This document shows positions 28,866 to 46,665 of a DNA stretch of 64,000 nucleotides, piece by piece; within the stretch, counting starts at the first letter, position 1; the number at the start of each line of letters is the position of its first letter. Made by a program: the position numbers and the translations under genes. Below the pieces are notes generated by a model, which saw nothing but the letters and a program-made list of their open reading frames with translations, had not been told where the DNA came from and made no database searches. The stretch covers positions 682,001-746,000 of the forward strand of contig NZ_JACOFU010000001.1 in NCBI RefSeq assembly GCF_014284275.1, written 5' to 3'. This DNA comes from Affinundibacterium amnicola (GTDB taxonomy: Bacteria > Pseudomonadota > Gammaproteobacteria > Burkholderiales > Burkholderiaceae_D).

Positions 28866-30125
28866 ATGGCAATTATCGAAGTAAAAGTTCCTCAGTTATC
28901 TGAATCCGTCGCAGAAGCGACTTTACTGTCTTGGCATAAAAAAGTAGGCGAAGCAGTTACTCGCGATGAAAATCTGGTGGACGTAGAAACTGATAAAGTG
29001 GTGTTGGAATTACCAGCACCAGCAGCTGGCGTTATCACACAAATTATTAGCGGTGATGGCAGCACTGTGGTTGCGGGTCAAGTCATCGCAATGTTAGATA
29101 CTGAAGCTTCAGCTGGTACAGTTGCTAGTGCCCCGGCAGCCGCAGCGGCGGTGGCTGCTCCAGTTGCAGCTGCTGCAACAAGCAGTTCCGCAGCCGCAAG
29201 TTCAGCAGGCATAGCAATGCCAGCAGCGGCAAAAATTTTGGCAGAAAACAATTTGTCTGCAGGTGCAATTGATGGCACAGGTAAAGATGGCCGCGTAACA
29301 AAAGGTGATGCATTGGCAGCAGTAGCTGGCAAAGCAGCACCAGCTGTTGCGCCTTTGGCAGCTCCAGTTGCAGCAAAACCAGCATTGCAACAAGTATCAG
29401 CGCCTGCAGTGGTCAACCTCGGTGATCGTCCAGAAGAGCGCGTTCCTATGAGCCGTTTGCGTGCACGTATCGCTGAACGTTTGGTGCAATCACAGTCCAC
29501 TAACGCGATTTTGACGACCTTCAATGAAGTCAACATGGCACCAGTGATGGACTTGCGTAACAAGTACAAAGATAAGTTCGAAAAAGAACACGGCGTGAAA
29601 TTAGGTTTCATGTCTTTCTTCGTCAAAGCTGCAGTTGCGGCATTGAAAAAATACCCAATCATCAATGCTTCCGTTGATGGCAATGACATCGTGTACCACG
29701 GTTATTTCGACATCGGTATTGCAGTTGGTTCACCACGTGGGTTGGTAGTGCCTATCTTGCGCAATGCAGATCAAATGTCTATCGCTGAAATCGAAAAGAA
29801 AATCGGCGAATTCGGCGCGAAAGCGAAAGACGGTAAATTGACTTTAGATGATTTGACTGGCGGTACTTTCTCCATCTCTAATGGCGGTACTTTCGGTTCT
29901 ATGTTGTCGACACCGATTATCAACCCGCCACAATCTGCAATCTTGGGCGTACATGCGACGAAAGACCGCGCAGTAGTTGAAAATGGTCAAATCGTGATTC
30001 GTCCTATGAACTACCTAGCGATGTCTTACGATCACCGTATCATTGACGGTCGTGAAGCCGTGCTAGGTTTGGTCGCAATGAAAGAAGCACTGGAAGATCC
30101 AGCTCGTTTGTTGTTGGATCTGTAA
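28866..30125 (+). CDS. sucB: Dihydrolipoyllysine succinyltransferase (E2) of 2-oxoglutarate dehydrogenase
   Basis: The core of the complex (also odhB). Its 419 residues begin with one lipoyl domain whose lipoylated Lys is in [13 protein letters not shown]. Next come an Ala/Pro/Val-rich flexible linker, the E3-binding domain ([33 protein letters not shown]) and a second Ala-rich linker. The catalytic domain follows, with [13 protein letters not shown] near the C-terminus. ACGGAG lies before the ATG. A small SHOCT-PspC gene separates it from lpdA. Confidence 0.97.
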
Positions 30126-30152
30126 TCTTAACAATTACACTCACATCAAAAT

Positions 30153-30509
30153 ATGAATATTGCTGACGAAATTAAACGTCTGCACGAATTGCATCAGTCA
30201 GGCGCACTGACTGATGCAGAATTCGCTCAGGCCAAAGAAAAGTTACTTGCGTCACTTAATGCAAACGCAGCAAATGCTGCAAACGCCTCACATGGTGGCG
30301 CAAATGGCGAAAATCCATTTGCTCAACTCAATCAATTGCGCCGTTCCAAAACGGATCAATGGATAGGTGGCGTTTGTGGTGGCTTGGCCAAATTTACAGG
30401 AATGGAAGCTTGGATCTGGCGCCTGATGTTCTTTTTGTTTGTCGCCTGTTTTGGTTTTGGTGTGGTCGCGTATTTGTTGGCCTGGATTTTCATTCCAGAG
30501 GAAGCATAA
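30153..30509 (+). CDS. SHOCT-PspC two-domain membrane protein
   Basis: A 118-residue protein with an N-terminal SHOCT-type short helix pair (MNIADEIKRLHELHQSGALTDAEFAQAKEKLL). An Asn/Ala linker follows, then a PspC domain (KTDQWIGGVCGGLAKFTGMEAWIWRLMFFLFVACFGFGVVAYLLAWIFIPEE) with one or two membrane helices. PspC proteins act in envelope-stress sensing in enterobacteria. Here it lies inside the odhA-odhB-lpdA row, 27 bp after odhB and 99 bp before lpdA. No psp operon is nearby. A link between membrane state and the dehydrogenase complex would be speculation. Confidence 0.85.
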   Translation: MNIADEIKRLHELHQSGALTDAEFAQAKEKLLASLNANAANAANASHGGANGENPFAQLNQLRRSKTDQWIGGVCGGLAKFTGMEAWIWRLMFFLFVACFGFGVVAYLLAWIFIPEEA

Positions 30510-30608
30510 TTCAGCAATTTTTTGGGCGCAGGGCTAGAGTCATGACGATTCATTGCTGCGCTCATTTTACATTTATTTATTTTTCAGTAAGCCTGACAAG
30601 GTAAAACT

Positions 30609-32036
30609 ATGAGCAAACAATTTGATGTCGTCGTGATCGGCGGCGGTCCTGGTGGTTATATCGCTGCAATTCGTGCGGCACAATTGGGTTTTTCTACCGC
30701 GTGTATCGACGCATGGACGAATGAAAAAGGCGGCCCAGCGCTTGGTGGTACGTGTACTAATGTTGGCTGCATTCCATCCAAAGCTTTATTGCAATCGTCT
30801 GAACATTATGAACACGCTGGTCATGCATTTGCCGATCATGGCATCAATGTCAGCGGTTTGGAATTAGACGTTGCGAAAATGCTCAAGCGTAAAGATACGA
30901 TTGTTAAGCAAAATAACGACGGTATCGTTTATCTGTTTAAAAAGAACAAAGTCACTTTCTTTCACGGACATGGTTCCTTTGTAAAAGCGGCAGATGGCGG
31001 CTACGAAATCAAAGTCGCAGGCAAAGCAGAAGAAACTATCACTGGTAAGCACATCGTTGTAGCAACTGGCTCGAACGCCCGTGCATTGCCAGGCGCAGCA
31101 TTTGATGAAGAATTGATTTTGTCGAATGACGGCGCGTTGAAAGTTGGCGCTGTTCCTAAGAAGTTGGGTGTGATCGGCGCGGGTGTTATTGGCCTGGAAA
31201 TGGGTAGCGTTTGGCGTCGTTGCGGTGCTGAAGTCACCGTATTAGAAGCATTGCCAACTTTCCTTGGCGCAGTTGATGAGCAGATCGCTAAAGAAGCGCA
31301 CAAATTATTTGTGAAGCAAGGTCTGTCTATCAACCTCGGCGTGAAAATTGGCGAAATCGTCAAAGGTGCTAATGATGTCACAGTCAATTACACAGATGAC
31401 AAAGGCGCTGAGCACAAAGCGGTTTTCGACAAACTGATTATCTCTATCGGTCGTACACCAAATACCAATGGTTTGAATGCAGAAGCTGTAGGATTGGCTT
31501 TGGACGAACGTGGCTTCGTCGCAGTGGATGGCGATTGCAAGACGAACTTGCCTAACGTGTGGGCAGTTGGTGACGTCGTACGCGGTCCTATGTTGGCACA
31601 CAAAGCAGAAGAAGAGGGCGTCGCCGTCGCTGAGCGTATCGCTGGTCAACATGGCCACGTGAATTTCAACACGATTCCTTGGGTGATCTACACCTCACCA
31701 GAAATCGCTTGGGTTGGCCGCACTGAACAACAACTGAAGGCTGACGGCGTAGCATACAAAGCGGGCACCTTCCCGTTTATGGCAAATGGCCGCGCGCGCG
31801 CTTTAGGTGATACCTCAGGTATGGTGAAATTCTTAGCAGATGCGACGACTGATGAAATATTGGGCGTGCATATCGTAGGCTCTATGGCTTCTGAGTTGAT
31901 TTCTGAAGCTGTCGTAGCGATGGAATTCCGTGCATCTTCTGAAGATATCGCTCGTATTTGCCACGCACATCCATCTTTATCTGAAGCGACAAAAGAAGCC
32001 GCACTCGCAGTTGATAAGCGTTCATTGAACTTCTAA
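30609..32036 (+). CDS. lpdA: Dihydrolipoyl dehydrogenase (E3)
   Basis: A flavoprotein that reoxidises the lipoyl arm of E2. The 475 residues show the FAD fold [22 protein letters not shown], then the redox disulfide in [16 protein letters not shown]. An NAD fold ([21 protein letters not shown]) and [21 protein letters not shown] follow. The C-terminal dimer domain has the active-site His-Glu pair ([16 protein letters not shown]). It is third in the 2-oxoglutarate dehydrogenase row. An intrinsic terminator follows, so the odh unit ends here. Confidence 0.97.
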
Positions 32037-32065
32037 TCAAAGTCAATTCAAGGTTCCAGGTAAAG

Positions 32066-32100
32066 AGCGGAATAGATTCTCGACCATCTATTCCGCTTTT
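32066..32100 (+). terminator. Terminator of the odh-lpdA unit
   Basis: A perfect 12-bp stem (AGCGGAATAGAT and ATCTATTCCGCT), an 8-base loop and TTTT after the stem. Confidence 0.85.
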
Positions 32101-32152
32101 ATGTATCTACATCAGTCCAATTGAGCGATCAACTCATCACCACAGCCCAAGC

Positions 32153-33265
32153 ATGAATGTTCACGAGTTTTATCAAGAAGCAATCGACAAGCGCGGCTTT
32201 CAAGTTGATGCTGCACAAAAGCGCGCGGTAGATCGCTTGCAACAATCATATGATGATTGGGTGGCTTATAAAGCGAAGCGTTCAAATCGATTAGTTCGTC
32301 TGATCAGTCGCCCTGAGGTGCCGCGCGGTGTCTACATGTGGGGCGGAGTAGGGCGCGGTAAATCATTTTTGATGGACAGTTTTTATTCAGTTGTCCCAGT
32401 GGTTCGCAAAACACGTTTGCATTTTCATGAATTCATGCGTGCTGTGCATCGCGAATTAGATGAGTTGAAAGGCGTGGCAGATCCACTCAATGAAGTCGCC
32501 GCACGCATCGCCAAAAAATATCGACTGATTTGTTTTGATGAGTTTCATGTTTCTGATGTGGCCGATGCCATGTTGTTATACAACTTGATGAAAGCCTTGT
32601 TTGATAATGGGGTGTCTTTCGTCATGACTTCAAATTATCAACCAGATACGCTTTATCCGGATGGCTTGCATCGCGATCGTATGTTGCCAACCATCGCTTT
32701 GATTAAAGAACGTATGGATGTGATGAATGTCGATTCTGGTAATGACTATCGGAAGCGCGCACTTGAGCAAGTTGATGCTTACTTGACGCCGTTGGGTGCG
32801 AATACTGATCGATTATTGCGCGAAGCTTTTGGTCGATTGGCGGAAACTAAGGACGAAGATCATCATGTTGATATTGAAGGGCGGCGGTTGAAAGCCTTGC
32901 GTCGTGCCGGTACGACGATCTGGTTTGACTTCGCAACCTTATGTGGCGGGCCGCGTTCACAGAATGATTATCTAGAAATCGCGAGTCGATTTCATACTGT
33001 TATTTTGTCGTCGATTCCGCAAATGTCGGCTGGCATGTCTTCCGAGGCGCGTCGCTTCACTTGGTTAATTGATGTTTTCTACGATAACAAGGTGAAGTTG
33101 ATTATGTCTGCAGAAGTCGCGCCAGAATTGCTGTACATGCAGGGTACTTTATCGAACGAGTTTCATCGTACCGTTTCACGCATTATAGAAATGCAGTCTC
33201 AAGATTATATGAATGCCGATCAGCGTGAGATCGTGGCGATGCTTGATTCAGATCATTCACACTAA
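32153..33265 (+). CDS. zapE: AFG1-family ATPase ZapE
   Basis: A 370-residue AFG1-like P-loop ATPase. In E. coli ZapE acts at the division ring, with mitochondrial homologues in protein quality control. The Walker A is GGVGRGKSFLMD and the Walker B is LICFDEFHVSDVADAM. TSNYQPDTLYPDGLHRDRMLP (sensor) and the C-terminal ARRFTWLIDVFYD complete the family pattern. It stands after the lpdA terminator with its own, unidentified promoter. The following gene begins 10 bp after its stop. Confidence 0.94.
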   Translation: MNVHEFYQEAIDKRGFQVDAAQKRAVDRLQQSYDDWVAYKAKRSNRLVRLISRPEVPRGVYMWGGVGRGKSFLMDSFYSVVPVVRKTRLHFHEFMRAVHRELDELKGVADPLNEVAARIAKKYRLICFDEFHVSDVADAMLLYNLMKALFDNGVSFVMTSNYQPDTLYPDGLHRDRMLPTIALIKERMDVMNVDSGNDYRKRALEQVDAYLTPLGANTDRLLREAFGRLAETKDEDHHVDIEGRRLKALRRAGTTIWFDFATLCGGPRSQNDYLEIASRFHTVILSSIPQMSAGMSSEARRFTWLIDVFYDNKVKLIMSAEVAPELLYMQGTLSNEFHRTVSRIIEMQSQDYMNADQREIVAMLDSDHSH

Positions 33266-33275
33266 TGTCAATAGA

Positions 33276-33662
33276 ATGATAATTTTAATTAAGAAAATAA
33301 TTCTGAGTTTTGTGCTGGTATCGTCATATGCCTTTGCTATGACGTCCGATTTGAATAACATCACCACCGAATCTGCGGTTCAGGCACTTAGTAAGGAATT
33401 TTCTAGTGGCAGCATTTTGTCTGTACCACTAGCAGAGTTAGCGTTGAATAAGCTTGAACAGTTGCAAACCACTTTGCAAGTGGAGTTGCAGGAAAAAGAA
33501 ACGGCCTGTCTTGATCATTTTTTCACCAATGCATGCTTGCAAGAACTTCGATTAAAACGGCGTGAACTGCAAGCAATCTTGCGTAACATTCGTATCGAAG
33601 CCAAATCTTTTCTACGCGGTACGCGCGCAAATAAATCCAAGAACCTTGTTGAGCAAGATTAA
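33276..33662 (+). CDS. Small secreted helical protein, unknown
   Basis: A 128-residue precursor from the ATG at 33276, chosen because a signal peptide (MIILIKKIILSFVLVSSYAFA) then starts the protein. The longer open frame reads through the end of zapE. The mature part is helical and rich in Gln, Glu and Leu, with two Cys (KETACLDHFFTNACLQELRLKRRELQAILRN) that could form a disulfide. It probably rides on the zapE transcript. I know no function. The ribosome site is weak. Confidence 0.7.
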   Translation: MIILIKKIILSFVLVSSYAFAMTSDLNNITTESAVQALSKEFSSGSILSVPLAELALNKLEQLQTTLQVELQEKETACLDHFFTNACLQELRLKRRELQAILRNIRIEAKSFLRGTRANKSKNLVEQD

Positions 33663-33683
33663 GCAATGTTAGTGATTGCAATA

Positions 33684-34853
33684 CTATATTTTTTGTAAGC
33701 GTTCTAATGCATAGTCCAAAGTTTTGGTTTGTTTCGCAAAACAAAAACGCACTAGTTGATGTTGATTTTGATCACGATAAAACGCCGATAGTGGAATTGT
33801 CGCAACACCAATCTCCTTGGTTAGCCAAGTCGCAAAATCAAGCTCGGTTCGATCAGAGATCTCCGAATAATCAGCACATAAAAAATAGGTTCCACTGACC
33901 GGCAATAATTTGAATTTTGTTTTTGCTAAGCCAGCACAAAAGTAATCGCGCTTATTTTGATAAAACATAGGCAGATTCAGATGATGCGCTGGTTCTTGCA
34001 TAAAGTGGGCGATACCAATTTGCATCGGCGTATTGACGGTAAATACATTAAATTGATGAACTTTGCGAAATTCGGCGGATAAAACTTTGGGCGCTAACAC
34101 GTAGCCTATCTTCCAGCCAGTGACATGGTAGGTTTTTCCAAAGCTGGAAATAATAAAACTACGTTGTGCTAACTCCGCATGTGATGCTAGGGATAGATGC
34201 GATTTCCCATCAAATACCATGTGTTCGTAAACTTCGTCTGAAATCAATAAGATTTTCGTATCTCGAACCAGCGCCGCTAGATTTTCAAGGTCCTTGTTCG
34301 TTAAGCTCATTCCAGTTGGATTGTGTGGCGAATTAATTAAGATAAGGCGAGTCTTGCTGCTGATTTTGGAAGCGACAGCGTCCCAATCGATAGAGAATCC
34401 ATGCTGATCAAGCCGCATTGAAACTAGTACAGGAATTCCGCCAGCGAGTTGTATTGTTGGTAAATAACTATCGTAGGCTGGCTCAATCACAATTACCTCA
34501 TCCCCAGTGCGTACGCATGCAAGTATGGTGGTCATAATTGCTTGTGTGGCACCGGCTGTGACTGTCACCTCAGTATCGGCATCGTATGTTGCTTGATATA
34601 ACGTCTCTACTTTGCTTGCAATCGCGTGGCGCAAGATAGCAGCACCGGGCATCGGTGGATATTGATTGTGCCCGGCTAGCATCGCTTGATGTACCTGTTC
34701 AATTAACGCCGGATTGCAATCAAAGTCTGGAAAACCTTGGCCCAGATTAATCGCTTGATAGGACTGTGCTAATGCCGACATGGTTGAGAAAATAGTGGTC
34801 TTAACTTCGGGTAATTTGGATTCAATCAATGTGCCGTTGTTATTGGTAGTCAT
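33684..34853 (-). CDS. Class I/II PLP aminotransferase, probably methionine/aromatic type
   Basis: A 389-residue fold-type I aminotransferase close to the YbdL/kynurenine-aminotransferase branch. It has the INLGQGFPDFDCNP start, INSPHNPTGMSL, LISDEVYEHMVFDG and the PLP Lys in FIISSFGKTYHVTGWKIGYV. The substrate-binding Arg is near the end (LVRFCFAKQTKTLDYALERL). I start at the ATG at 34853 rather than the long frame from 34913. Methionine or glutamine is the usual substrate of this branch, but specificity cannot be read. It converges on the small gene before it with only 21 bp between stops. Confidence 0.85.
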   Translation of the reverse strand: MTTNNNGTLIESKLPEVKTTIFSTMSALAQSYQAINLGQGFPDFDCNPALIEQVHQAMLAGHNQYPPMPGAAILRHAIASKVETLYQATYDADTEVTVTAGATQAIMTTILACVRTGDEVIVIEPAYDSYLPTIQLAGGIPVLVSMRLDQHGFSIDWDAVASKISSKTRLILINSPHNPTGMSLTNKDLENLAALVRDTKILLISDEVYEHMVFDGKSHLSLASHAELAQRSFIISSFGKTYHVTGWKIGYVLAPKVLSAEFRKVHQFNVFTVNTPMQIGIAHFMQEPAHHLNLPMFYQNKRDYFCAGLAKTKFKLLPVSGTYFLCADYSEISDRTELDFATWLTKEIGVATIPLSAFYRDQNQHQLVRFCFAKQTKTLDYALERLQKI

Positions 34854-35110
34854 GTTGTGGTGAATAAGCCTAAGATTGTAATCCGAAGATTTTACTTGCA
34901 ATTTCAGTATCAAAGAACATGACGCTTAGATATTCTCTCTATAAGCTCATGTGCATTTTTATACGAGGTTTCCTCGTTGTTCAGCCTGGTAAGCATGTTT
35001 TTACATAAAGCATTGAATTACGGTGCTTTTCCAGCTCTTCTTCAGGATTCATTTTCATCTGATTGTTCGATAATTCAAGCTATACAAATCCCAATTGTGC
35101 CGAGGTGGCC

Positions 35111-38100
35111 ATGGATGTGGGGGCTTGGAATCACTCAACGACGAGGTCTGCAATGAACGATAATCAAATGATACTCAACCGACTCTCCATGGGCGCAATG
35201 GCAATTGATGCTGTCGATGCGGTAGATGATCTTCATCATGCCAATGTTGATCTAGTGAGTGATGATAGCCTGGCAGCACACGCGCGGATTGATATTAAAG
35301 GTATTCGTGCCGCGATAGCACGGGTTGAAGCAGAGGCGGAAGGCCGATCCGAGTCTCCAGTATTAACACCATCCTCTCCCACTAAAGCAAACATTTCACA
35401 ATTGCACATTCCTTCACCTGTCATGCAGGAGGAATCTGAAGAGCATACTTCATTAAAGGAAGAGGCCAAATTTCAAGCCGGATTGCGATTTAAGAATGAG
35501 CAAGCAGCAAAGAAAATGGTGATCGAACAAATTAAGATCGACACACAGCTTAATTTCAAAGCAAAAATAGATGCAGAACAGCTTGCCACCGAAGCCGAAA
35601 ATGCTAAGCAATGGGCCGCCGAGCGCGCTGCCGCATCATATGCAGCCAAGCAAGAGGCGATAGAACGTGCCAGAGTCGATGCACGCATTGCTGAACACGC
35701 ACGTGAGCGTGAACGTCAAGATCGTGAAGCGCGTATCAATGCTGAACGTCTAGCGAAAATTCGCAATGAATCGCAACAAATCAACCGTGAACGTGATCAG
35801 GCCGAAGCCATTGCTTTAGAAGTGTCATTAAGTCGCACGCCGCTAGAAATACGGGCACGTGAAGAAGCGCGTGGACGTGCGGTTTTAGAGCGAGAATATG
35901 AAGCCATTGCGCAGGCACGTGTCGATTCTGAAAAACGTGCGGCGGATGCGATTCAATTACGTTTGCAAGCCGAAGAAGCTTTGTTGGCGGCGGCCAATCG
36001 TCGCGAGCAAGCGGAAAAAATCGCAGCAGAGGCCGCTATCGCAAGAAGCGAGGCCGAAGAAAAAATTCGTTATGCGACCGAATCACGCATCGAAGCAGAA
36101 AAGGAATTGCAATCAAAAGCACTGATGCGTGTAGAAACTGAACAATATGCCGATGCAAACGCACGCGCGCGTTTAGAAGCAGAAGAAAAAGCGAATGAAG
36201 AGGCAAAACGTCGTCGCCAAGCAGAACTAGAAGCAACGCAAATGGCAAAACAGCGTCGTGAAGAAGAGGAACGTGCAGAAAAATATGCAAAAGAAAAGGC
36301 GAGTTTAGAACGCGAAGCAGTCCAATTAGCAAAAGAAAAAGCAGATGCTGAGCAAAAAGCATTAGCAGCGATTGCATTGCAAACAGAGTATTTGAAACGT
36401 GCCAATCAAGCAGCAAACTCCAAAGCGAAGAGTGTAATCGAGTTGGCGAAAGCAGAAAAAATGCGCGCCGAGGCAGAACAACGCGCTGCAAAAGCGATTC
36501 AAGCGAAAGTTTTAGTCGAACAAAAAGTGATCGCCGAAGCGGAAACGATTGCCAAAGTTGAGGAAACGCAAACAGAAGTTTTGAACATGCAACACCAGGC
36601 GCAACAGGCAATTCGGATTGCGCAAGAAACCAAGGTGGTTGCTGAGAAAATTACTCTGGAAAACACCGTAGAAAATGTAAAACTGGGTCAACAACTGGCG
36701 ATGATTGCGATTCAAAAGAATCAAGATTCGCAAGCCTTGTTAGAAACGCAGCAAGCGCGTGTTGATGCAGAAAGCAAAGCTTTAGAATTGATACAAGAAA
36801 AATTGGTCTTGGAGCACCGTCGGGCTGAATCCGCTGAAAAATTATTACTGGCTTCTGCGGAAAAATTGGCTAGCGAAAAAGATGCAGAGACAGCTGCCGC
36901 AGCACGCCTGAAAGCGGAAGAGGATGCAATTGCTTTAGCCGCGCAAAAAGAAGCCTTAGAATTGCAGCAACAAAAAGCTTTGCAGGCGAGTACCGAAGCA
37001 GAGCGCCAAGCGATCGAACAAGCACAAGTACAGGCTGAATTGCAGTGCAAGGCTGCCGCTTTAGCTTTGCTGAAAGCACGTCAAGTTGTAGAAATGACCA
37101 AGGCCGAACAAATACGTCTAGAAGCCGAACGCAACGCCGCAATCGCGAATCAAGAGAAATTAGAAGCGGAGCGCGAAGCTGCAGAACAAGTGTTGGCACG
37201 TGCGAAAGCGGATCGTGAACACGCTCAAATGCTCTTTGCACGTCAAGAGAAAGAGAAAGAATCCAAATTGGCACGTCAGGAATTATTGCAGGCAGAACAG
37301 GTACGTTTGCAAAAAATGACTGAGCACGCTGAGTTGCAAAGACAAACTGCAACAGTGGCAAAGTTTAAAGCAACTGAAGCCATAGAATTAACCAAATTGA
37401 TGCGTCAACGTGGGCAAGAAGAATCCCGCAAACTGGCTTTAATTGAAGAAAAAAAGGCGATAGAACTGCAATTAATCGCTGAATTGAATGCAAAATCAGA
37501 AGCGGAACAAAACGAAATTCGATTGAACCAAGAGCGCTTAGCTTCTGAGCAAAAAATTCGCTTGGCTTTAGAAGAAAAGGCGCAAGCTGAACAACAATTG
37601 ATTATTCAAAATCAAGAAAAAATTCAACTTGAGCAGCAAATTAAGGAAGCAACCGAGTTGCGTGCAAAACGCGCTTGTGAGTTGGCGGAAATTGAGAAAA
37701 CTAAGCTGCATGCGCAAGAAACTGCACTCAAAACCTTGGAAGAAATTAGTGTATTAGAAAAGCAGCAAAAAGAAGCTGCCTTGCAAGAAGCGCAATTGCA
37801 GCTTCAAAGACTTGAACAAGAGCGTGCTGCAACGGCTGATGCTGAAACTAAATTGACGCTGGAAAAACAAAATGCACAATTGGCTGAGGAGCGGGCGCAG
37901 GCAGAACAGAATGCAAAACGTTTGCAAGAAGAAAAGCTAGCGCAAGAGCAGGCGTTGCATGCAAAAGCGCATGCCTACGCAGATTTGCAAGATCAGGCGC
38001 GCCAAGTGCTAATTCAAAAAAAACAGCGCATCGCTGAGTTAGAAAAAACAGCAGAAGCTCGTTTAATTGCAGATCAGACTTTGTTGGCAACGACGAATGA

Positions 38101-40285
38101 CAAGCTAGCGATTGAACAATCAACTTTGCATCATGTAGAAAACCAGCAAAAAGCCGAACAGCTAGCATTAAAAAATGCGCAGATTAACGAAGGCTTGGCA
38201 GCGCTTGCACAGCAAGATGCAGAGAGTGCGCTTGGCAAGGAACTTTTATTGCATGAGGCGCTTGCTGCCAATGCAGAAGCGCAAAATATTTTCGCACGTT
38301 TGATGCAACAGCGCGTAGATGAAGAATTGAAGCTACATCAATTGCATGAAGAACGAATCGCGAAAGAAACCGTGGCATTGAGCTCGCTTGAATATGCACA
38401 AGTTGCAGAAAAAAATGCGATCGATGAGGCAATGCGTCTGCAGGCAACAGAAGAAGAAAAATTAGCGTTGGCAATTCAACGACAAAAACAAGATGAGCAA
38501 GCGCGTATTGAATTGGCGTCTTTAAATGCTGAAGAAGTAAACTATTTGGCACTTGCAGAAAAAGAGAGCGTCGCTCGTCAACAAGCAACCGCATCCTTAG
38601 AAGCAAAGAATCAAAGCTTGGCGACGGCTCTGGCGATTGCCGAAGAGCAGGCGCAAATAGAAGCACAACTAACAGCAGAGATTCAGCAAAAAATTCAAGA
38701 TGAGCAACGCGCTATGACAGCGTTAAATGAACGTTTGCGTTTTGAAACGATGTTGGCGGAGACCGAGCGTCAGCGCGCCGAAGAAGAAGAACTTGCGGCG
38801 CAAATTATTCAAGAGAAATTTGCGACGGAAAACGCTTTGTTGCTGAGTTCACGTGAACATGCTGAAGCGCAAAAAACAGCGCTGAAATTAATTGATTCAC
38901 GTTTGGCGCAAGCGCAAGAATTGAAAGCTTTTGAAGAGCAACGTATCGCAGTCGAATCACAAGAGTTACAACTATTGGCACAAAAAACAGTGGCTGAAAA
39001 ATATCTTGCTGAAGAAACACAGAAACGCATCGACGCTGAACAGGCGTATCTGTTGGAGTGTGAACGTCGGGTGCTGGCAGAGCAAGAGGCGAGAATTGCC
39101 ATGCAAAACCGTTTGGCGGCAGAAAATGAGGCGCGCGTTTTAGCAGAGCAACAAGCACAACTCGACACTGCCGCTGCGCAATTGGCGCAAGAGCATGCAA
39201 ATCAATTACTCAGTTTGCAGCAGTCTCAGATGACGCGTTTGGAGCTCGAAACCACGGTCGCTAATCAGTTAAATGCTCAGTTAGCGGCTGAAGAAGAGCT
39301 GATCAGATTGCATCAATCCAGCTTGCGCGACATCGAATTGAAATTAGAAGCAGAATCAATGATTATCGAGGAATCTAAGCGTCGTGCAGAATTAGAAGCG
39401 CAAGCCTTGTTGCAAGCACAAGAACGTTTGCAAGCAGAAAGCCAGGCAGCGCAAAATGAGCAAGCAAAATTTGAAGCTGAATTGGCCTTGACCATGGCTG
39501 CAAATGAAAAATTAGCGCAAGATTCCTTGCAGACAGATGCAATGCAGGCGAATCGCGAGCAACAAGAAGTTTTGGCGCAGATGGAACAAGATAATGTGGC
39601 AGTAGAAAAACACATTGCTAAATTGTTGGCCGAACAAATTATTGAAGCGCAGACTTTACGTCAAAACCATCTCGAACGTCTGCAGCGTGAACAACAAGCG
39701 CAGGCATTGATGCAAGAACGTTTGCTACAAGAACAGGCAGCTTTGATGGCGGCTAATCAAAAATGCGAAGAAGAACATACTTTGCTACTGAAAAATCAAG
39801 CATTGGAAGCGCAATTAAAGCAAGAAGTTAGTATGCAAAAAGAAAATTCTCTGGTTTTGCAGCAGCAAGTCGAGGCTGAAAAACAAGCGGCAGAAGCGTT
39901 GACGAAACAGTTGTTGGATCGTTTGACCTTAGAGCAAGGACATCATCAGCAATGGTGTGATCGTGCGAAAGAAGTATTACAAGCTTCGCCTATTCCAGTT
40001 GAATTGAATCTGCTGACGCCAGCAAATCCACGTCGCAAATTACGTTCACCTGTGCTGTTTAGCGTTTTGATGAGTATTGGTATGGTCGGCGCAGCAAGTT
40101 GGGGAATGTTACAGGCACAAACAAGTAATGCAGCAAATGTCAGTGCTTCTGCTGAGAAAAAATTACCCGCTGTTTCGCAAGCCAAAGTTAATTTGGTATC
40201 GCCAGCACAAGAATCCTTGCGTATGTCGTATCAAATCGAAACGAATGCGGATAAGGCAACCGCGCCAAAAAATGAAGCGATGTAA
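35111..40285 (+). CDS. Giant coiled-coil protein with one C-terminal membrane span
   Basis: About 1,724 residues, the largest gene here, not assignable to any family I know. The first ~225 residues are mixed: an acidic start, a Ser/Pro stretch (ESPVLTPSSPTKA) and basic helices. From 35792 to 39928 there are 1,379 residues of Ala/Glu/Gln/Lys/Arg/Leu-rich heptads without Pro or Gly-rich breaks. A short domain with two His and one Cys (QGHHQQWCDRAKEVL) follows, then a basic RRKLRS, one membrane helix (40052-40111) and a tail of 57 residues. Topology is probably N-in, C-out. GAGG lies 5 bases before the ATG at 35111. An ATG at 35153 has an equally good GAGG, and the frame is open from 35063. A scaffold or fibre tied to the inner membrane is an inference. 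Confidence 0.9.
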   Translation: MDVGAWNHSTTRSAMNDNQMILNRLSMGAMAIDAVDAVDDLHHANVDLVSDDSLAAHARIDIKGIRAAIARVEAEAEGRSESPVLTPSSPTKANISQLHIPSPVMQEESEEHTSLKEEAKFQAGLRFKNEQAAKKMVIEQIKIDTQLNFKAKIDAEQLATEAENAKQWAAERAAASYAAKQEAIERARVDARIAEHARERERQDREARINAERLAKIRNESQQINRERDQAEAIALEVSLSRTPLEIRAREEARGRAVLEREYEAIAQARVDSEKRAADAIQLRLQAEEALLAAANRREQAEKIAAEAAIARSEAEEKIRYATESRIEAEKELQSKALMRVETEQYADANARARLEAEEKANEEAKRRRQAELEATQMAKQRREEEERAEKYAKEKASLEREAVQLAKEKADAEQKALAAIALQTEYLKRANQAANSKAKSVIELAKAEKMRAEAEQRAAKAIQAKVLVEQKVIAEAETIAKVEETQTEVLNMQHQAQQAIRIAQETKVVAEKITLENTVENVKLGQQLAMIAIQKNQDSQALLETQQARVDAESKALELIQEKLVLEHRRAESAEKLLLASAEKLASEKDAETAAAARLKAEEDAIALAAQKEALELQQQKALQASTEAERQAIEQAQVQAELQCKAAALALLKARQVVEMTKAEQIRLEAERNAAIANQEKLEAEREAAEQVLARAKADREHAQMLFARQEKEKESKLARQELLQAEQVRLQKMTEHAELQRQTATVAKFKATEAIELTKLMRQRGQEESRKLALIEEKKAIELQLIAELNAKSEAEQNEIRLNQERLASEQKIRLALEEKAQAEQQLIIQNQEKIQLEQQIKEATELRAKRACELAEIEKTKLHAQETALKTLEEISVLEKQQKEAALQEAQLQLQRLEQERAATADAETKLTLEKQNAQLAEERAQAEQNAKRLQEEKLAQEQALHAKAHAYADLQDQARQVLIQKKQRIAELEKTAEARLIADQTLLATTNDKLAIEQSTLHHVENQQKAEQLALKNAQINEGLAALAQQDAESALGKELLLHEALAANAEAQNIFARLMQQRVDEELKLHQLHEERIAKETVALSSLEYAQVAEKNAIDEAMRLQATEEEKLALAIQRQKQDEQARIELASLNAEEVNYLALAEKESVARQQATASLEAKNQSLATALAIAEEQAQIEAQLTAEIQQKIQDEQRAMTALNERLRFETMLAETERQRAEEEELAAQIIQEKFATENALLLSSREHAEAQKTALKLIDSRLAQAQELKAFEEQRIAVESQELQLLAQKTVAEKYLAEETQKRIDAEQAYLLECERRVLAEQEARIAMQNRLAAENEARVLAEQQAQLDTAAAQLAQEHANQLLSLQQSQMTRLELETTVANQLNAQLAAEEELIRLHQSSLRDIELKLEAESMIIEESKRRAELEAQALLQAQERLQAESQAAQNEQAKFEAELALTMAANEKLAQDSLQTDAMQANREQQEVLAQMEQDNVAVEKHIAKLLAEQIIEAQTLRQNHLERLQREQQAQALMQERLLQEQAALMAANQKCEEEHTLLLKNQALEAQLKQEVSMQKENSLVLQQQVEAEKQAAEALTKQLLDRLTLEQGHHQQWCDRAKEVLQASPIPVELNLLTPANPRRKLRSPVLFSVLMSIGMVGAASWGMLQAQTSNAANVSASAEKKLPAVSQAKVNLVSPAQESLRMSYQIETNADKATAPKNEAM
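35792..39928 (+). repeat. Unbroken 14-residue (two-heptad) protein repeat, 197 heptads
   Basis: By hand the encoded protein divides into 97 units of 14 residues plus three single heptads, 1,379 residues with no insertion or loss. The unit is roughly [R/K]-[L/V/I]-x-A-E-x-x-A-x-x-x-[A/L]-x-[E/A], as in RLEAEEKANEEAKR, RVDAESKALELIQE, KLEAEREAAEQVLA and RIDAEQAYLLECER. The single heptads are LLLASAE, ISVLEKQ and SLRDIEL. The DNA (42 bp per unit) is not a near-identical tandem repeat, so the pattern is held at protein level. Confidence 0.85.
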
Positions 40286-40346
40286 TTGTTTTACAGGGAA
40301 ACGAGCTCAAATGAAGTCAGCTATCAGTTACTTTTTATGCGCTCGC

Positions 40347-41693
40347 TTAGTGGAACATTAGTAGAATTTCTAAGCCACCTTGTGCATGATTGTGGATATG
40401 CATTTTGCCACCGTGACGTTTGACGATGCGGTTCACAATCGCCAAACCTAAACCAGAACCGTTTGCTTGGCTGCGCGCGATTTCACCACGCGTGAATGGT
40501 CGTAGTAAACGTGGTATTTGAGTATCTTCAATTCCAGTGCCAAAATCTCGGAACTTAACAAGCGTGCCAGAATGGCTGGCACTGGCTTGTCGCCGGCATT
40601 CTATCTGTAGATGCAGCACTTGATCCTCTGGCGAGCGTCCATAGCGCATCGCATTTTGAATCAGGTTGTTAAATAGACGTTGAAATTCAATTTCTATTCC
40701 TGTTACATAGAGTTCTGGTTCGATCTGCAAATCGATACGCACATCACTTGATTTGGCTAAGTCAGTAAATAGTTTGTCAATCAGGCTACTAAGATTAAAG
40801 CTAGTAAACGTTGATTCATGTAAAGGTTTTGCGTAATCTAAAAATTGCTGAATGATGCTATCCATTTGCTGCAAATCACCTTGCATGGCCTCGCGCGTAG
40901 TAGCTTCAAGATTTGCCATCTCTAATTCCAATTGCAGACGAGTGAGCGGCGTTCGTAGATCATGTGAAATGCCAGCGAGGATCACGGTTCTATCTGTTTC
41001 TATACGCGCTAAATCGTCGACCATTTGATTGAAGCTGGTGTTGGTTTCGCGAATTTCTCGTGGTCCAGACTCAGATAGTGCGGGTGGGCGCTTTCCTCTA
41101 GCGAGCTGCCGTGCTGCTGCGCTCAAATTTGATAAAGGTGCGTTGATTCTTTGAGAAATAAATACGGCGGCAATCAAGGCCAATATTAAACTAATGAACG
41201 CCCAGCCAAAGAATTGCAGATTGGTTTCTGTTTGCAGGCGATCAGCCTCTAAGCGGAGCCAAAACTGATCTTCGTCAATCTGAAAGCTCAACCAAAATCC
41301 AACTTCACCATTAACACTTTGTGCGAACTGGGTCTGGCTACCCAGTTTGTCTTGAACTAATTTTCTTACTTCAATTAATAGCGGTGTTTCGTCGGTTTTC
41401 TTTATTTGATCATTCTCTTCTAATAGATAAATTCGTATTCCTTCGTTACTGGCAAGGTCAATGAGTAACTCGCGTCGTTTATCTTCGGCAGAATGAGTCA
41501 ACGCGGCACTGGTGATCGTGACAATAGAGACGATTTGATTCGCTAATTGCTGAGCACGGGGCTTACGTTCGAGTAACTTGATACTGACGAACCATGCCAG
41601 CATGCTGGCTGTGACAAGCACGGCTAATAACAAGAAAGTTCGCCAGAATAGGCTGTTTTGAAACCAACCGAAGCGCTGTAAATATTGTCGCAT
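40347..41693 (-). CDS. envZ: EnvZ-type sensor histidine kinase
   Basis: The membrane sensor kinase of the pair with the ompR-type gene upstream. It has an N-terminal helix (TFLLLAVLVTASMLAWFVSIKLL) and a periplasmic domain of about 120 residues. A second helix (FFGWAFISLILALIAAVFI) leads to a HAMP region (INAPLSNLSAAARQLARGKRPPALSESGPREI). The HisKA box is ILAGISHDLRTPLTRLQLELEM and the ATPase domain has NLIQNAMRYG, FRDFGTGIE and NGSGLGLAIVNRIVKRHGG. I use the ATG at 41693; a GTG at 41729 would add 12 residues. 83 bases separate it from the regulator's stop codon. The signal is unknown; orthology to E. coli envZ is by architecture. Confidence 0.88.
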   Translation of the reverse strand: MRQYLQRFGWFQNSLFWRTFLLLAVLVTASMLAWFVSIKLLERKPRAQQLANQIVSIVTITSAALTHSAEDKRRELLIDLASNEGIRIYLLEENDQIKKTDETPLLIEVRKLVQDKLGSQTQFAQSVNGEVGFWLSFQIDEDQFWLRLEADRLQTETNLQFFGWAFISLILALIAAVFISQRINAPLSNLSAAARQLARGKRPPALSESGPREIRETNTSFNQMVDDLARIETDRTVILAGISHDLRTPLTRLQLELEMANLEATTREAMQGDLQQMDSIIQQFLDYAKPLHESTFTSFNLSSLIDKLFTDLAKSSDVRIDLQIEPELYVTGIEIEFQRLFNNLIQNAMRYGRSPEDQVLHLQIECRRQASASHSGTLVKFRDFGTGIEDTQIPRLLRPFTRGEIARSQANGSGLGLAIVNRIVKRHGGKMHIHNHAQGGLEILLMFH

Positions 41694-41776
41694 TAAATTG
41701 AAAGTGGGTAGGTGATGAATACAGACCACGTCTACGCTAAGTAAGGCGCGTTCGAATTCGATAAACCTCAGTTGTC

Positions 41777-42502
41777 TTAATGACTTTGTCCATCAGGAAT
41801 AAATACATATCCCAATCCCCAAACCGTTTGAATATATTGCGGATTTGTAGGATCAATTTCGATTAATTTTCTTAGGCGAGAAATCTGTACGTCTAAGCTA
41901 CGATCAAAGACTTCATACTCGCGACCACGCGCTAATTCCATCAATTTTTCACGCGATAAAGGTTGACGGGCATGACGGGCAAAGACTTTGAGTACAGAGA
42001 ATTCACCTGTCGTTAAGCTCACGTTCTCACCGTTTTTCTTCAAATTTCTGGTGGATAAATCCAAAACAAATTCACCAAATTGAAAGCATTGACCTTGTTC
42101 CGTCGGTGCACCTGGAACTTCCTCTGGACCACGCCGGCGCAATACGGCATGAATGCGAGCAACTAATTCGCGGGGATTAAAAGGTTTGGGCAAATAATCG
42201 TCCGCCCCCATCTCTAAGCCGATGATGCGATCAACTTCTTCACCTTTTGCGGTAAGCATAATGATCGGTGTATTATCGCCACCACCACGCAGACGACGAC
42301 AAATTGATAAGCCGTCTTCCCCAGGTAACATGAGGTCTAGCACTAATAAATCATAACGTTCTCGCATCCAGAGCTTATTCATTGCTTGCGCATTTTCAGC
42401 AACAACAACTTGAAAACCTTGTTCACCTAAATAACGTCGCAATAAATCTCGTAATCGTAAGTCGTCGTCAACCACCAGAATTTTTGCTTTTGATTCATTC
42501 AT
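41777..42502 (-). CDS. ompR: OmpR-type response regulator
   Basis: A DNA-binding response regulator. The receiver domain has ILVVDDDLRLRDLLRRYL (acidic pocket), LLVLDLMLPGEDGL with the phosphorylated Asp near residue 56, MLTAKGEEVDRIIGLEMGADDYLPKPFNPREL (Thr and Lys), then a winged-helix output domain (SLTTGEFSVLKVFARHARQPLSREKLMELARGREYEVFDRSLDVQISRLRKLIEIDP). It is very like OmpR of beta- and gammaproteobacteria. ATG at 42502 is preferred over GTG at 42514. Three phased TTACA boxes lie about 80-100 bp upstream and could bind this protein itself. Confidence 0.92.
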   Translation of the reverse strand: MNESKAKILVVDDDLRLRDLLRRYLGEQGFQVVVAENAQAMNKLWMRERYDLLVLDLMLPGEDGLSICRRLRGGGDNTPIIMLTAKGEEVDRIIGLEMGADDYLPKPFNPRELVARIHAVLRRRGPEEVPGAPTEQGQCFQFGEFVLDLSTRNLKKNGENVSLTTGEFSVLKVFARHARQPLSREKLMELARGREYEVFDRSLDVQISRLRKLIEIDPTNPQYIQTVWGLGYVFIPDGQSH

Positions 42503-42582
42503 AACCGCGCTCACTTATTTGCACATGAAAAAAGCTTATCTTACTGCCAAACAATCAAATGCCATATAAACTTTTGAGAAGA

Positions 42583-42606
42583 TTACAAACTGTTACAGCG
42601 CTTACA
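42583..42606. promoter_or_regulatory. Three phased TTACA direct repeats before ompR
   Basis: TTACA at 42583, 42593 and 42602, spaced 10 and 9 bp, so all on one face of the helix. OmpR-family regulators bind such direct repeats. The site lies between ompR (minus) and the secreted-protein gene (plus), so either or both could be controlled. Confidence 0.5.
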
Positions 42607-42746
42607 GAAACAAGTCTATCTATCTTTTGGACTCAGCTTTAGACTTAAACTGTCGATGAAATTGCTTGGATGCGGTTTTGTTTGCTTATAAAATGCTGCT
42701 GATAGGCTTTTGTGATTGTAGGTTTTTGATTAACTGAAAGTGTGCT

Positions 42747-43145
42747 GTGTTTCCTGGGAAATGCCCATTATTTTGCTTGCTGATAGGCGCTGTGTTTTTT
42801 GTGAGCAGTGATGCATGTGCGTCACCTCCACAAACACAGGACGCCCAAGCGATGCAAAAAATCGAGAAGCGGCGCCAGCAATTTCGTGAGCTGCAAGAAC
42901 TGCGATTTAATCAGCGTCTTGAACGCATACAAGACGCTCAATCAGGCGCAGTGCGTGACAGAGGGGCGTTACCACCCATACGTGAAAGCTCGTCAGGTGC
43001 AATCGATCGTGATGAGCGATCTGCGGAGCGACCTATCATCAAGTTGAATCGTTTAAGCCCCGAAGAACGTCTTGCGCTTCGAAGGCAAATCCGCGAAGCT
43101 AGACAAGACATTTATTTGCGCCGACTTCAGAAACAAAAGAACTGA
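42747..43145 (+). CDS. Small secreted Arg/Gln-rich protein, unknown
   Basis: A 132-residue frame from a GTG, MFPGKCPLFCLLIGAVFFVSSDACASPP, with a signal peptide cut near ACA-SPP. The rest is highly basic and helical (KIEKRRQQFRELQELRFNQRLERIQDAQ, and LSPEERLALRRQIREARQDIYLRRLQKQK). The SPEERxxLRRQIREA stretch recalls small periplasmic proteins of the DUF3106 or CpxP-like kind, but I cannot place it. It lies opposite ompR across 230 bp. The start codon is uncertain. Confidence 0.6.
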   Translation: MFPGKCPLFCLLIGAVFFVSSDACASPPQTQDAQAMQKIEKRRQQFRELQELRFNQRLERIQDAQSGAVRDRGALPPIRESSSGAIDRDERSAERPIIKLNRLSPEERLALRRQIREARQDIYLRRLQKQKN

Positions 43146-43220
43146 CTTCTATTGCATCAATTGTCGGCCGATTTAAGCCGAAAAATATTTTGATTAATAC
43201 AATGTCTGCACGCCCTAATG

Positions 43221-43670
43221 TTAGCGGCGATGTTGTTTCATGATTTTTTGCTGCTCGCGTTGCCAATCACGTTCTTTTTCAGTTTCGCGTTTATCATGTT
43301 GCTTCTTACCTTTGGCCAAACCTATTTGGCATTTCACTCGTCCGTTTAAATAGTGCATATTTAATGGCACCATCGTGTAACCAGAACGTTCTACTTTTCC
43401 GATGAGTTTCTTAATTTCTTCCGCGTGAAGTAGTAATTTTCTGGTACGTACTGAATCTGGGTGTATGTGAGTAGATGCCGTCGGCAGCGCGCCAATATGC
43501 GCACCAAAGAGATAAATTTCACCGTTTTTGATAATCACATAGGCTTCTTTTAACTGTACGCGACCAGCCCGGATGGCTTTGACTTCCCAGCCTTGCAGTA
43601 CGATACCTGCTTCATATTGCTCTTCAATGAAAAAATCGTGGAATGCTTTTTTATTATCTGCGATGCTCAT
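43221..43670 (-). CDS. smpB: SsrA-binding protein SmpB
   Basis: Binds tmRNA and brings it to stalled ribosomes. The 149 residues are full length: [40 protein letters not shown], then [10 protein letters not shown], and the basic C-terminal tail [28 protein letters not shown]. No tmRNA gene is in the window. It diverges from ratA across 134 bp, the standard order in beta- and gammaproteobacteria. Confidence 0.97.
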
Positions 43671-43804
43671 ACTACTCTCTTGCTAATTCTGATTATTATG
43701 TAAGTTCTTCAACGCTAAATAGGAATGAATTTGCGCATATTCAACGAGAAGAGCGATGTTTCAGTTAAAATTCGGCCTGTGATCATACCAAATGACTTGA
43801 GATA

Positions 43805-44239
43805 ATGGCAGTCGTCAAAAAAAACGTTCTTGTATCCTTTAGTGCCGAACAAATGTTCGCACTCGTCGACAAAGTAGAAGACTATCCTTTATTCTTGCCG
43901 TGGTGTGGCGGCGTTCATGTTGCTGAGCGAACTGATACACACTTAAAGGCAACATTATCTATCAATTATCATGGAATCAAACAAAGTTTCACTACCCAAA
44001 ATATAAATTGTCCACCACACACAATGGAAATGCACTTGGTGGATGGTCCTTTTAAACAGTTGCATGGGTATTGGACATTTACGGCATTACGCAGCGATGC
44101 CTGTAAAATCGAGTTTGATTTGCGTTATGAATTTTCCAGTAAATTACTAGAGCATTTAATTGGTCCAGTGTTTAGTAAGATCACTAATAGCTTCGTCGAT
44201 GCATTTTGTGAACGAGCCGAGGTCGTCTATGGAAAATAA
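43805..44239 (+). CDS. ratA: RatA/COQ10-type START-domain protein
   Basis: A 144-residue polyketide-cyclase-like protein (VKKNVLVSFSAEQMFALVDKVEDYPLFLPWCGGVHV). The family includes yeast Coq10, a ubiquinone-binding protein needed for respiration, and E. coli RatA, reported to block 70S ribosome assembly. The sequence cannot choose between the two roles. The C-terminal LEHLIGPVFSKITNSFVDAFCERAEVVYG is typical. It overlaps rnfH by 11 bp. Confidence 0.92.
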   Translation: MAVVKKNVLVSFSAEQMFALVDKVEDYPLFLPWCGGVHVAERTDTHLKATLSINYHGIKQSFTTQNINCPPHTMEMHLVDGPFKQLHGYWTFTALRSDACKIEFDLRYEFSSKLLEHLIGPVFSKITNSFVDAFCERAEVVYGK

Positions 44240-44549
44240 TTTAAGTGCAACGATTCGCATACAGCTTTGCTATGCCATCGAAAAAATGAATCCAACCATC
44301 GTTATGTTGGAGCTGCCGAGGGACAGTAAAGTGACCCAAGCAGTGCAACATTTAGATCCGTCTCATCTCGCCATCGTTGAAGCACAACTGGATAAGCAAA
44401 GTGCTTGGGCAGTTTTTGGTAAGAAAAAAAATGCAGATTATTTGTTGCAAGATGGTGATCGGCTTGAATTGTGTCGTCCCTTGATTGCCGATCCTATGAG
44501 TGCTCGCCGCCACAGGGCAAAGCGCGAGCACAAATCGGGCAAGATGTAA
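44229..44549 (+). CDS. rnfH: RnfH/RatB ubiquitin-fold protein
   Basis: A 106-residue protein of the RnfH family with a beta-grasp fold (IRIQLCYAIEKMNPTIVMLELPRDSKVTQAVQ, then VFGKKKNADYLLQDGDRLELCRPLIADPMSARRHRAKR). I start at the ATG at 44229, inside the last codons of ratA. This gives the usual N-terminus and removes 23 residues read from ratA sequence. Function is unknown beyond its constant pairing with ratA. No rnf operon is in the window. Confidence 0.93.
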   Translation: MENNLSATIRIQLCYAIEKMNPTIVMLELPRDSKVTQAVQHLDPSHLAIVEAQLDKQSAWAVFGKKKNADYLLQDGDRLELCRPLIADPMSARRHRAKREHKSGKM

Positions 44550-44570
44550 TCGCGCTTCTCATCTTGATCT

Positions 44571-45080
44571 TTAGCGGCAATCTGCCAATACCTTCTTCAC
44601 GTCCGCCATTTCTTTTGTTCGCTGCGCTTCATCGAGCGGAGTGCGTTCGCCATTCTTGTCTCTGGACATGATCAAGATCCCTTCGTCCAAGCTTTGCTTG
44701 TACGACTTGGCACGTTCACAATTTTTAGTCTTATCAGCACTTTCTTGTTTCTGCGCTGCGCTTTTTTTATCTGCTTCTTCACGCGCTAACTTGCGTTTGT
44801 TGAAATCTTCATTTTTGCTGGCGGTTGTTACTGGCTTTTCGATCTTCGGGTTATCCGTCGCAGATTCTGTAGCATTCTGATTGGCTGTACTTGTCGTTGG
44901 ACGAGTGCTACCAAATGGGGACTTCAAAATTTTGTCTCGTGGGACTGATTTCGGTGGCGGGGTATCGGAGTATTGCTTAATTCCCTTCTCATTAAGCCAA
45001 ATGTATTGCGCCATTGCGATATTGGAAATCATTAGCGATGCGATAAGTCCAGATGCTAAAAAGCCGTATGTTTTCTTCAT
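44571..45080 (-). CDS. DUF4124 periplasmic protein
   Basis: A 169-residue precursor. The signal peptide MKKTYGFLASGLIASLMISNIAMA is followed at once by the DUF4124 signature QYIWLNEKGIKQYSDTPPPKSVP. A Thr/Asn/Lys-rich linker and a charged helical C-terminus follow (KNEDFNKRKLAREEADKKSAAQKQE and LDEAQRTKEMADVKKVLADC). The domain is common in betaproteobacterial envelope proteins; its role is unknown. It converges on rnfH with 21 bp between stops and diverges from guaB. Confidence 0.88.
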   Translation of the reverse strand: MKKTYGFLASGLIASLMISNIAMAQYIWLNEKGIKQYSDTPPPKSVPRDKILKSPFGSTRPTTSTANQNATESATDNPKIEKPVTTASKNEDFNKRKLAREEADKKSAAQKQESADKTKNCERAKSYKQSLDEGILIMSRDKNGERTPLDEAQRTKEMADVKKVLADCR

Positions 45081-45172
45081 GATGTACTCGAATATTCTGA
45101 AATGAAAGCGTTCTTTTTGAATAAATTAAGAGTGAGTTTTACACGGAACGAGACGGATCGGCAAGTTTTCTG

Positions 45173-46665
<1,493 letters not shown>

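Follow-up and report, generated by a model that had tools for sequence, protein, structure and literature searches.

Positions 35792–39928 of the window, the 64,000-nucleotide stretch of Affinundibacterium amnicola DNA analyzed here, translate without a stop into 1,379 residues that a sequence-only reading had described as a coiled coil in one unbroken register, naturally raising the question of which protein carries such a coil and what a rod of this kind could do. The segment is real but incomplete, being the central part of a longer protein: the gene spans 35153–40285 on the forward strand and encodes 1,710 aa from an ATG start (MNDNQ...), and the true start, an N-terminal motif, a transmembrane helix and a conserved tail had all been missed. 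The reading frame is open from a TTG at 35063 (35063–40285, 1,740 codons), and the start was assigned to the Met at 35153 because homology in relatives begins there.

Layout of the protein and its 14-residue unit

To describe the protein we used an alignment of 29 Undibacterium proteins, the window included. From 40 matching Undibacterium genomes 31 loci (again with the window) were taken, and two were dropped, L058 with its 5' end cut and L056 with its frame lost at about residue 1450; L048 was cut back to its conserved Met. The genome of L056 (G015) shares an identical first 95 residues with G013, in which the frame is intact, and the loss may be either real or a sequencing error.

The protein begins with a conserved N-terminal region, continues as a long rod of helix, crosses the membrane with a single predicted helix and ends in a short tail. 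Three conserved parts flank the rod, namely this N-terminal region, a helix with an invariant Trp before the membrane, and an LxMSYQL tail motif. The N-terminal region (35153–35338, forward strand) contains the MNDNQMILNRLSMG peptide, an acidic linker and then RIDIKGIRAAIARVEAEA; in Undibacterium it follows the pattern MNDNQ..LNRLS.G and then RIDIKGIRAAIARVEAEA, with 12 invariant columns among 19 Undibacterium rows, and its core IREAIARVEAEA is recognisable in other genera. The invariant Trp (residue 1601, corresponding to W151 of a 260-aa C-terminal piece compared in 22 rows) lies in a helix near the end of the membrane-proximal neck. The transmembrane helix is predicted at 40052–40138, where the 19-residue hydropathy reaches its maximum for the whole protein (1.7, from residue 1634), while residues 1–1600 stay at or below 1.14 (at residue 6). 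The tail motif, LRMSYQI in the window (40217–40237), matches the pattern [LMIV]x[MLIVF][ST][YFVL]x[LI] in 26 of the 29 Undibacterium rows, and the other three start with F. Since RRKLR precedes the membrane helix, the established positive-inside rule suggests an N-in, C-out topology, in which the rod is predicted to lie in the cytoplasm and the tail in the periplasm.

AlphaFold2 models, made on family alignments as single chains and thus uninformative on partners, were consistent with this layout. The model of the first 330 residues placed helices at 3–12, 38–42, 48–66 and 94–329 (pTM 0.31), and that of the last 260 residues (pTM 0.40) gave a long helix, a low-confidence helix over the membrane stretch (184–212 of the C-terminal piece, low pLDDT) and then no structure. 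The predicted helix therefore outreaches the segment first noticed, running from about residue 94 to about residue 1611, which at 0.1485 nm per residue corresponds to about 225 nm, and to about 187 nm for residues 200–1455.

Autocorrelation of the 1,379-residue segment gave identity peaks at lags 14, 28, 42 and 56 (z 7.7, 9.3, 9.7 and 5.8 against shuffles), as the sequence-only reading would lead one to expect, and no peak at lag 7 (z −0.3); the unit is therefore 14 residues long, and its two heptads are unlike. We then scored the segment with a cyclic HMM of 14 states, its emissions trained exclusively on 17 relatives from other genera and its background taken from Undibacterium; the score was +191 versus −300 (sd 15) for 20 shuffles. 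Within the segment the HMM found 7-residue shifts only and no heptad-breaking shift, which bears out the unbroken heptad phase. The proposed unit count held in its principle, 14-residue units with single heptads between them, but not in its number, as the HMM preferred four half-unit shifts over the three single heptads claimed. The shifts fall at residues 557, 884, 1384 and 1551 with the other-genus-trained HMM and at 557, 886, 1390 and 1551 with an Undibacterium-trained one (36821–36823, 37802–37810, 39302–39322 and 39803–39805, forward strand), and the last sits 41 residues before the segment end. The place of the first is common to 18 of 20 other-genus loci with a membrane helix, which have a 7-residue shift at residues 580–605 in their own numbering.

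The segment contains a proline at residue 230 (35840–35842, within R[TA]PxE), which is present in 28 of the 29 Undibacterium rows, the remaining row having a gap, and in both Noviherbaspirillum rows. Just upstream of the segment the phase is broken, with the HMM phase track showing a net shift of 10 mod 14 across residues 134–152 (35552–35608), and 26 of 29 other-genus relatives likewise have a non-heptad shift at residues 159–182 of their own numbering. Tandem Repeats Finder detected no DNA tandem repeat in 30000–46000; the repeat of the rod is visible at the protein level only.

In the average unit (HMM, 29 Undibacterium rows), position 1 is Lys or Arg (69%) and position 5 Asp or Glu (72%), with Ala/Leu at position 2, Ala at 4, Gln at 6 and Ala/Leu at 8, 9, 11 and 12. 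The apolar residues (positions 2, 4, 8, 9, 11 and 12) make one face, and the segment contains 12.8% Leu, 19.5% Ala and 4.5% Ile. The two heptads of the unit are thus unlike, one bearing a K/R–D/E pair at the centre of the apolar surface and the other being a plain Ala/Leu patch.

A distal rod of constant length and a variable neck

Comparison of the 29 orthologs divided the coil into two parts. Residues 200–1455 (35750–39517, forward strand) are exactly 1,256 residues long in 27 of the 29 Undibacterium orthologs, and the 26 length-locked rows besides the window have 40–85% identity to it over this stretch. The exceptions are L050, in which a 243-residue insertion at 1022 brings the stretch to 1,499 residues, and L054, the most divergent row, with 1,212 residues. 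The dropped L058 aligns with L050 with 4 gaps in 1,736 positions, and this near-gapless alignment indicates that it shares the insertion. The L050 insertion shifts the heptad phase once. The neck (39518–40018), by contrast, differs in length and register among species: the stretch 1455–1660 measures anywhere between 203 and 356 residues, with 18 lengths among the 29 rows. Counted as distinct indels, there was 1 in residues 200–1454 versus 38 in 1455–1660, and of 28 rows, 1 versus 21 carried indels in these parts. The binomial P for 1:38 is 1.6e-31 under a uniform model in which events are treated as independent, which within a family they are not, and gap placement in a repeat is soft; the plain lengths are therefore the sounder statement. 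The rod is accordingly a length-locked distal part joined to the membrane by a free neck, and because the neck varies, the total reach of the protein is not kept constant.

In pairs with at least 58% identity, coil indels occurred only at residue 1491 or beyond in the first member's numbering, on a pairwise map covering residue 136 up to the last 150 residues. Eight rows, including the window, share a gapless coil of 1,378 residues, the most distant having 39% identity. Sequence identity to the window drops less sharply than indels rise, as in L046, where it goes from 0.34 (residues 1050–1455) to 0.21 (1456–1620). The length changes in the neck do not follow the heptad, as only 1 of the 38 distinct neck indels is a multiple of 7. 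A first count over all pairs, with 1,267 gap runs of which only 2.6% had a length divisible by 7, had seemed to argue against register keeping, and that argument was rejected, since mapping puts nearly all indels in the neck.

The protein is under purifying selection. Seven pairs were tried for dN/dS; two gave no ratio owing to saturated dS, and of the five usable pairs two share a row. Over residues 130–1460 these five gave 0.035, 0.063, 0.115, 0.027 and 0.037, the last from a pair with dS near 1.1. The neck gave 0.051–0.152, above the distal rod in each of the same five pairs, and the membrane helix and tail 0.113–0.166. Conservation is highest in residues 151–350, where the majority share per 50-residue bin is 0.76–0.80 versus 0.42–0.48 for residues 1451–1600.

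These lengths bear directly on the suggestion, made in the sequence-only reading, that the rod may be a ruler with repeat number setting its length. Such a molecular ruler would be as long as its number of 14-residue units dictates, and open frames do differ in length across genera (737–1,997 aa, leaving aside frames below 600 aa, several of which are at contig ends) while being similar within several of them. However, a distal rod constant in 27 of 29 orthologs next to a neck whose indels are hardly ever multiples of 7 argues against repeat counting, and between genera the ends and the membrane helix change along with the length. We consider a ruler very unlikely. The other guesses offered with it, a filament or a spacer, are still possible accounts and are weighed below.

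Distribution, gene neighbourhood and a second rod

The rod gene was matched in 40 of 43 Undibacterium genomes, including all 35 of good quality. At E 0.01 a profile of the 116 N-terminal residues matched 145 of the family's 245 genomes, including 132 of the 217 of good quality, in 25 of 44 genera. In the order, 13 of 300 genomes matched, seven of them outside the family and some at weak E-values, and in the class only the 4.58-Mb window genome itself (1 of 274, E 1e-4). The window rod had no match in Pfam or NCBIfam at E 0.1 nor among PDB sequences at E 0.01, and five relatives had none in Pfam (E 0.1), so that the rod has no annotated family, in line with the sequence-only reading. A search of the open-licence literature on Undibacterium or Oxalobacteraceae coiled-coil proteins and Burkholderiales scaffolds gave no paper on the rod protein among the matches listed. 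It is thus an undescribed, conserved giant protein of many genera of the family.

The comparison with other genera rests on 29 genomes, fetched from 128 that matched. The 14-residue period is present in these loci, with a lag-28 z of at least 3.7 in 28 of 29 and 2.4 in L106. A C-terminal membrane helix (hydropathy at least 1.46 within 121 residues of the C-terminus) was found in 20 of the 29, and the tail pattern in 17. The nine loci without a membrane helix come from six genera and are short, eight having frames between 770 and 1,095 residues long and L106 one of 1,200. They keep the period more weakly (lag-28 z 3.7–5.4 in the eight; lag-14 z 1.8–4.9 in the nine), and eight of them, aligned to the window, match its N-terminal half. 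These nine (L098–L101, L103, L104, L106, L107 and L109) also lack the tail motif, and in seven a stretch of the form [RH]EV[IL][GE]R[FL] was read by eye near the end. In L147, a relative from another family of the order, a membrane helix was read by eye. L149, also from another family of the order and a weak match (E 1.4e-5), is a 929-aa coil in which a membrane helix near the C-terminus and the tail MKLSTEL were likewise seen by eye; perhaps it represents the same tail logic elsewhere.

In the window the rod gene stands alone, with a methionine aminotransferase gene on one side and EnvZ/OmpR-type genes, which are on the opposite strand, on the other. Neighbours differ among genera and none names a function. 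A TPR protein lies downstream on the same strand in 8 of the 29 other-genus loci (L083, L084, L085, L087, L090, L093, L094 and L097), followed in 7 of them by a YkuD-type L,D-transpeptidase (Pfam run on one such locus, L093), and the window genome carries a relative of the TPR protein elsewhere. We considered a link to wall synthesis on this basis and set it aside as too weak to use. Upstream of the aminotransferase gene, a 149-aa ORF (33213–33662) has relatives in 17 Undibacterium loci, the window included, and no match in Pfam or NCBIfam. Scans for promoters (3 found versus 5.7 expected) and terminators (11 versus 10.1) gave chance-level results.

A second rod of 913 aa, found through a weak match, is encoded on another contig of the window genome (G000:C30:171248-173986; L150:2749-5490). 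It has the same 14-residue period (z 10.3) and a short tail, and its hydropathy peaks at 1.95 (residue 827). At E 1e-6 it has matches in 12 of the 43 Undibacterium genomes, in G027 over 133 residues only, and these are the genomes in which the main rod either has at least 53% identity to that of the window or is in pieces. Among 250 genomes of the order no other was found at E 1e-10 (best three or fewer candidates per genome). The second rod may be a partner of the main one.

Packing, proposed function and known systems

We asked whether the charges of the coil favour a particular pairing. By a hydropathy-based core assignment, positions 1/8 and 5/12 form the centre of the apolar face, which would place the K/R and D/E residues in core layers. 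A parallel homodimer in register would bring like charges together in 160 of 394 core layers in the window (155–167 in the other seven of eight ortholog rows), and such a pair looks unfavourable on these predicted core charges. A parallel pair staggered by 7 would have 12 like and 7 opposite charges in 392 layers, and antiparallel pairings would be mostly opposite; one example, taken over the eight rows, has 638 opposite charges and 44 like ones of 2,320. A four-charge network in a parallel pair is possible. The best antiparallel charge match, 34.9 over the eight sequences (4.36 each), did not exceed the maxima of a null that keeps the phase blocks (4.62, sd 0.20, 40 shuffles). A special antiparallel register had stood out (2.88 versus 2.09, sd 0.13) under a null that shuffles all 14-residue blocks, which is an unfair control, and was discarded when it vanished with the phase-block-keeping null. 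Under the block-breaking null some parallel staggers were also slightly raised, with z up to 4.0 at lag 515 versus a typical null maximum of 3.2. Charge correlations over the eight orthologs thus established no preferred lateral stagger.

The charges also bring up a lone stable helix, a single alpha-helix domain held by salt bridges between Lys/Arg and Asp/Glu four residues apart and forming no coiled coil, which the like charges of the in-register pair would suit; the high apolar content gathered on one face, and a heptad phase kept across the segment that a lone helix would not need, make this the least probable account of all.

We propose instead, with a probability of about 0.4, that the protein is a tail-anchored scaffold rod, with rods packed in register and tied to the envelope. 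The C-terminal helix would sit in the inner membrane, with the LxMSYQL tail in the periplasm and the rod in the cytoplasm. Rods would be held in a fixed register, either alongside one another or on a regular partner, and this would keep residues 200–1455 nearly free of indels, and the neck would be free in length because it would only link the assembly to the membrane. The conserved N-terminal region and the N-proximal rod would bind a partner in the cytoplasm and the tail motif one in the periplasm, so that the protein would tie an inner scaffold to the envelope, with a putative role in the envelope or in cell shape. An exact 1,256 residues beside a free neighbour implies that residue position along the rod matters relative to something outside the chain, and that its distance from the membrane is unimportant. 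The simplest cause of the length lock is packing of the rods side by side in register, and a rod binding a regular partner along its length fits the same facts. The low dN/dS of the distal rod, the high conservation of residues 151–350 and the presence of a conserved head, membrane helix and tail motif also speak for a scaffold tied to the envelope. A comparative study (PMC5082667) links coils constant in both length and sequence, such as myosin, to functional residues throughout the coil, and coils constant in length alone to spacers. The same study states that coiled coils are in general less variable in length than other regions (3.6-fold on average), and this general constancy counts against the scaffold, as do the L050 insertion, the nine helix-less loci, the lack of a stagger and the uninformative neighbours. 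The split between rod and neck offers a clean handle on whether coiled-coil length is kept for reach or for register.

A plain fixed-reach tether, in which a golgin-like coil would hold the head about 200 nm from the membrane to capture a partner with no side-by-side assembly, is the alternative that survives best. It has the same order of head, long coil and C-terminal membrane helix, and giantin is described in PMC5082667 as a length-conserved spacer with a C-terminal membrane segment. A spacer should hold the length from head to membrane, yet residues 1455–1660 range from 203 to 356 residues; and spacers are said to diverge in sequence, yet this rod has a dN/dS of 0.027–0.115. We regard a tether as possible but on balance doubtful. 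Somewhat less probable still is a cytoplasmic skeleton of the intermediate-filament kind, of which the helix-less forms would be the basic type and the membrane helix a lineage-specific addition. The nine helix-less loci, eight of them matching the N-terminal half of the window protein and all keeping the period more weakly, would suit it, but the helix is widespread (20 of 29 other-genus loci and, by eye, L147), so that its loss in the short forms fits equally well. We think it unlikely that the protein forms a membrane skeleton of new design, in which rods would interlock in 14-residue steps (about 2.1 nm) through apolar patches and salt-bridge stripes alternating every heptad, as a sheet or bundle tied to a periplasmic partner, with the second rod as a co-component in some species.

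Several known systems resemble the scaffold rod that we favour. Scy and FilP of Streptomyces are bacterial coiled-coil proteins with a special repeat, from a different phylum. The repeat of Scy has 51 residues, unlike the 14 of the rod. Crescentin and other intermediate-filament-like proteins share a long heptad rod near the membrane, and the known ones are proposed to be skeletal, according to PMC10873595. Filaments of the crescentin kind consist of parallel dimers, and for the rod an in-register parallel pair looks unfavourable on its core charges. In crescentin the C-terminal half contains a stutter and the first 27 residues attach the protein to the membrane, whereas residues 214–1592 of the rod contain no non-heptad shift, its phase breaks lying upstream (134–152) and, in other species, in the neck, and its membrane helix is C-terminal.

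The claim of the sequence-only reading that no bacterial family has this form is right as to annotated families, but long helical membrane-bound rods are known. GPR, the growth pole ring protein of Agrobacterium, is marked by a ring of foci at a growth pole. According to PMC8262873, GPR is a membrane-anchored protein of 2,115 aa with 1,700 aa of continuous helix and a bulk predicted to be cytoplasmic. It shares with the rod the giant, helical, membrane-bound build and the predicted cytoplasmic location, but it has two N-terminal membrane helices and PF01442 apolipoprotein matches, whereas the rod has one C-terminal helix and no such match. PF01442 was absent from the Pfam results for the window rod and five relatives (E 0.1), a PF01442 search of the window genome gave two weak places, neither in the rod gene and none above the cut-off, and the low hydropathy of residues 1–1600 leaves no N-terminal membrane helix like those of GPR. 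Golgins come closest in layout, with giantin (PMC5082667) combining a long coil, an N-terminal head, a C-terminal membrane helix and a conserved length. The predicted order of head, long coil and single C-terminal membrane helix was found in the rod, as a likeness of layout and not of descent: golgins are eukaryotic and the rod bacterial, and homology, looked for against PDB sequences alone, gave no match. We therefore file the rod as a probable variant of the membrane-anchored long-helix scaffold, one that would work like golgins and GPR while being a member of neither.
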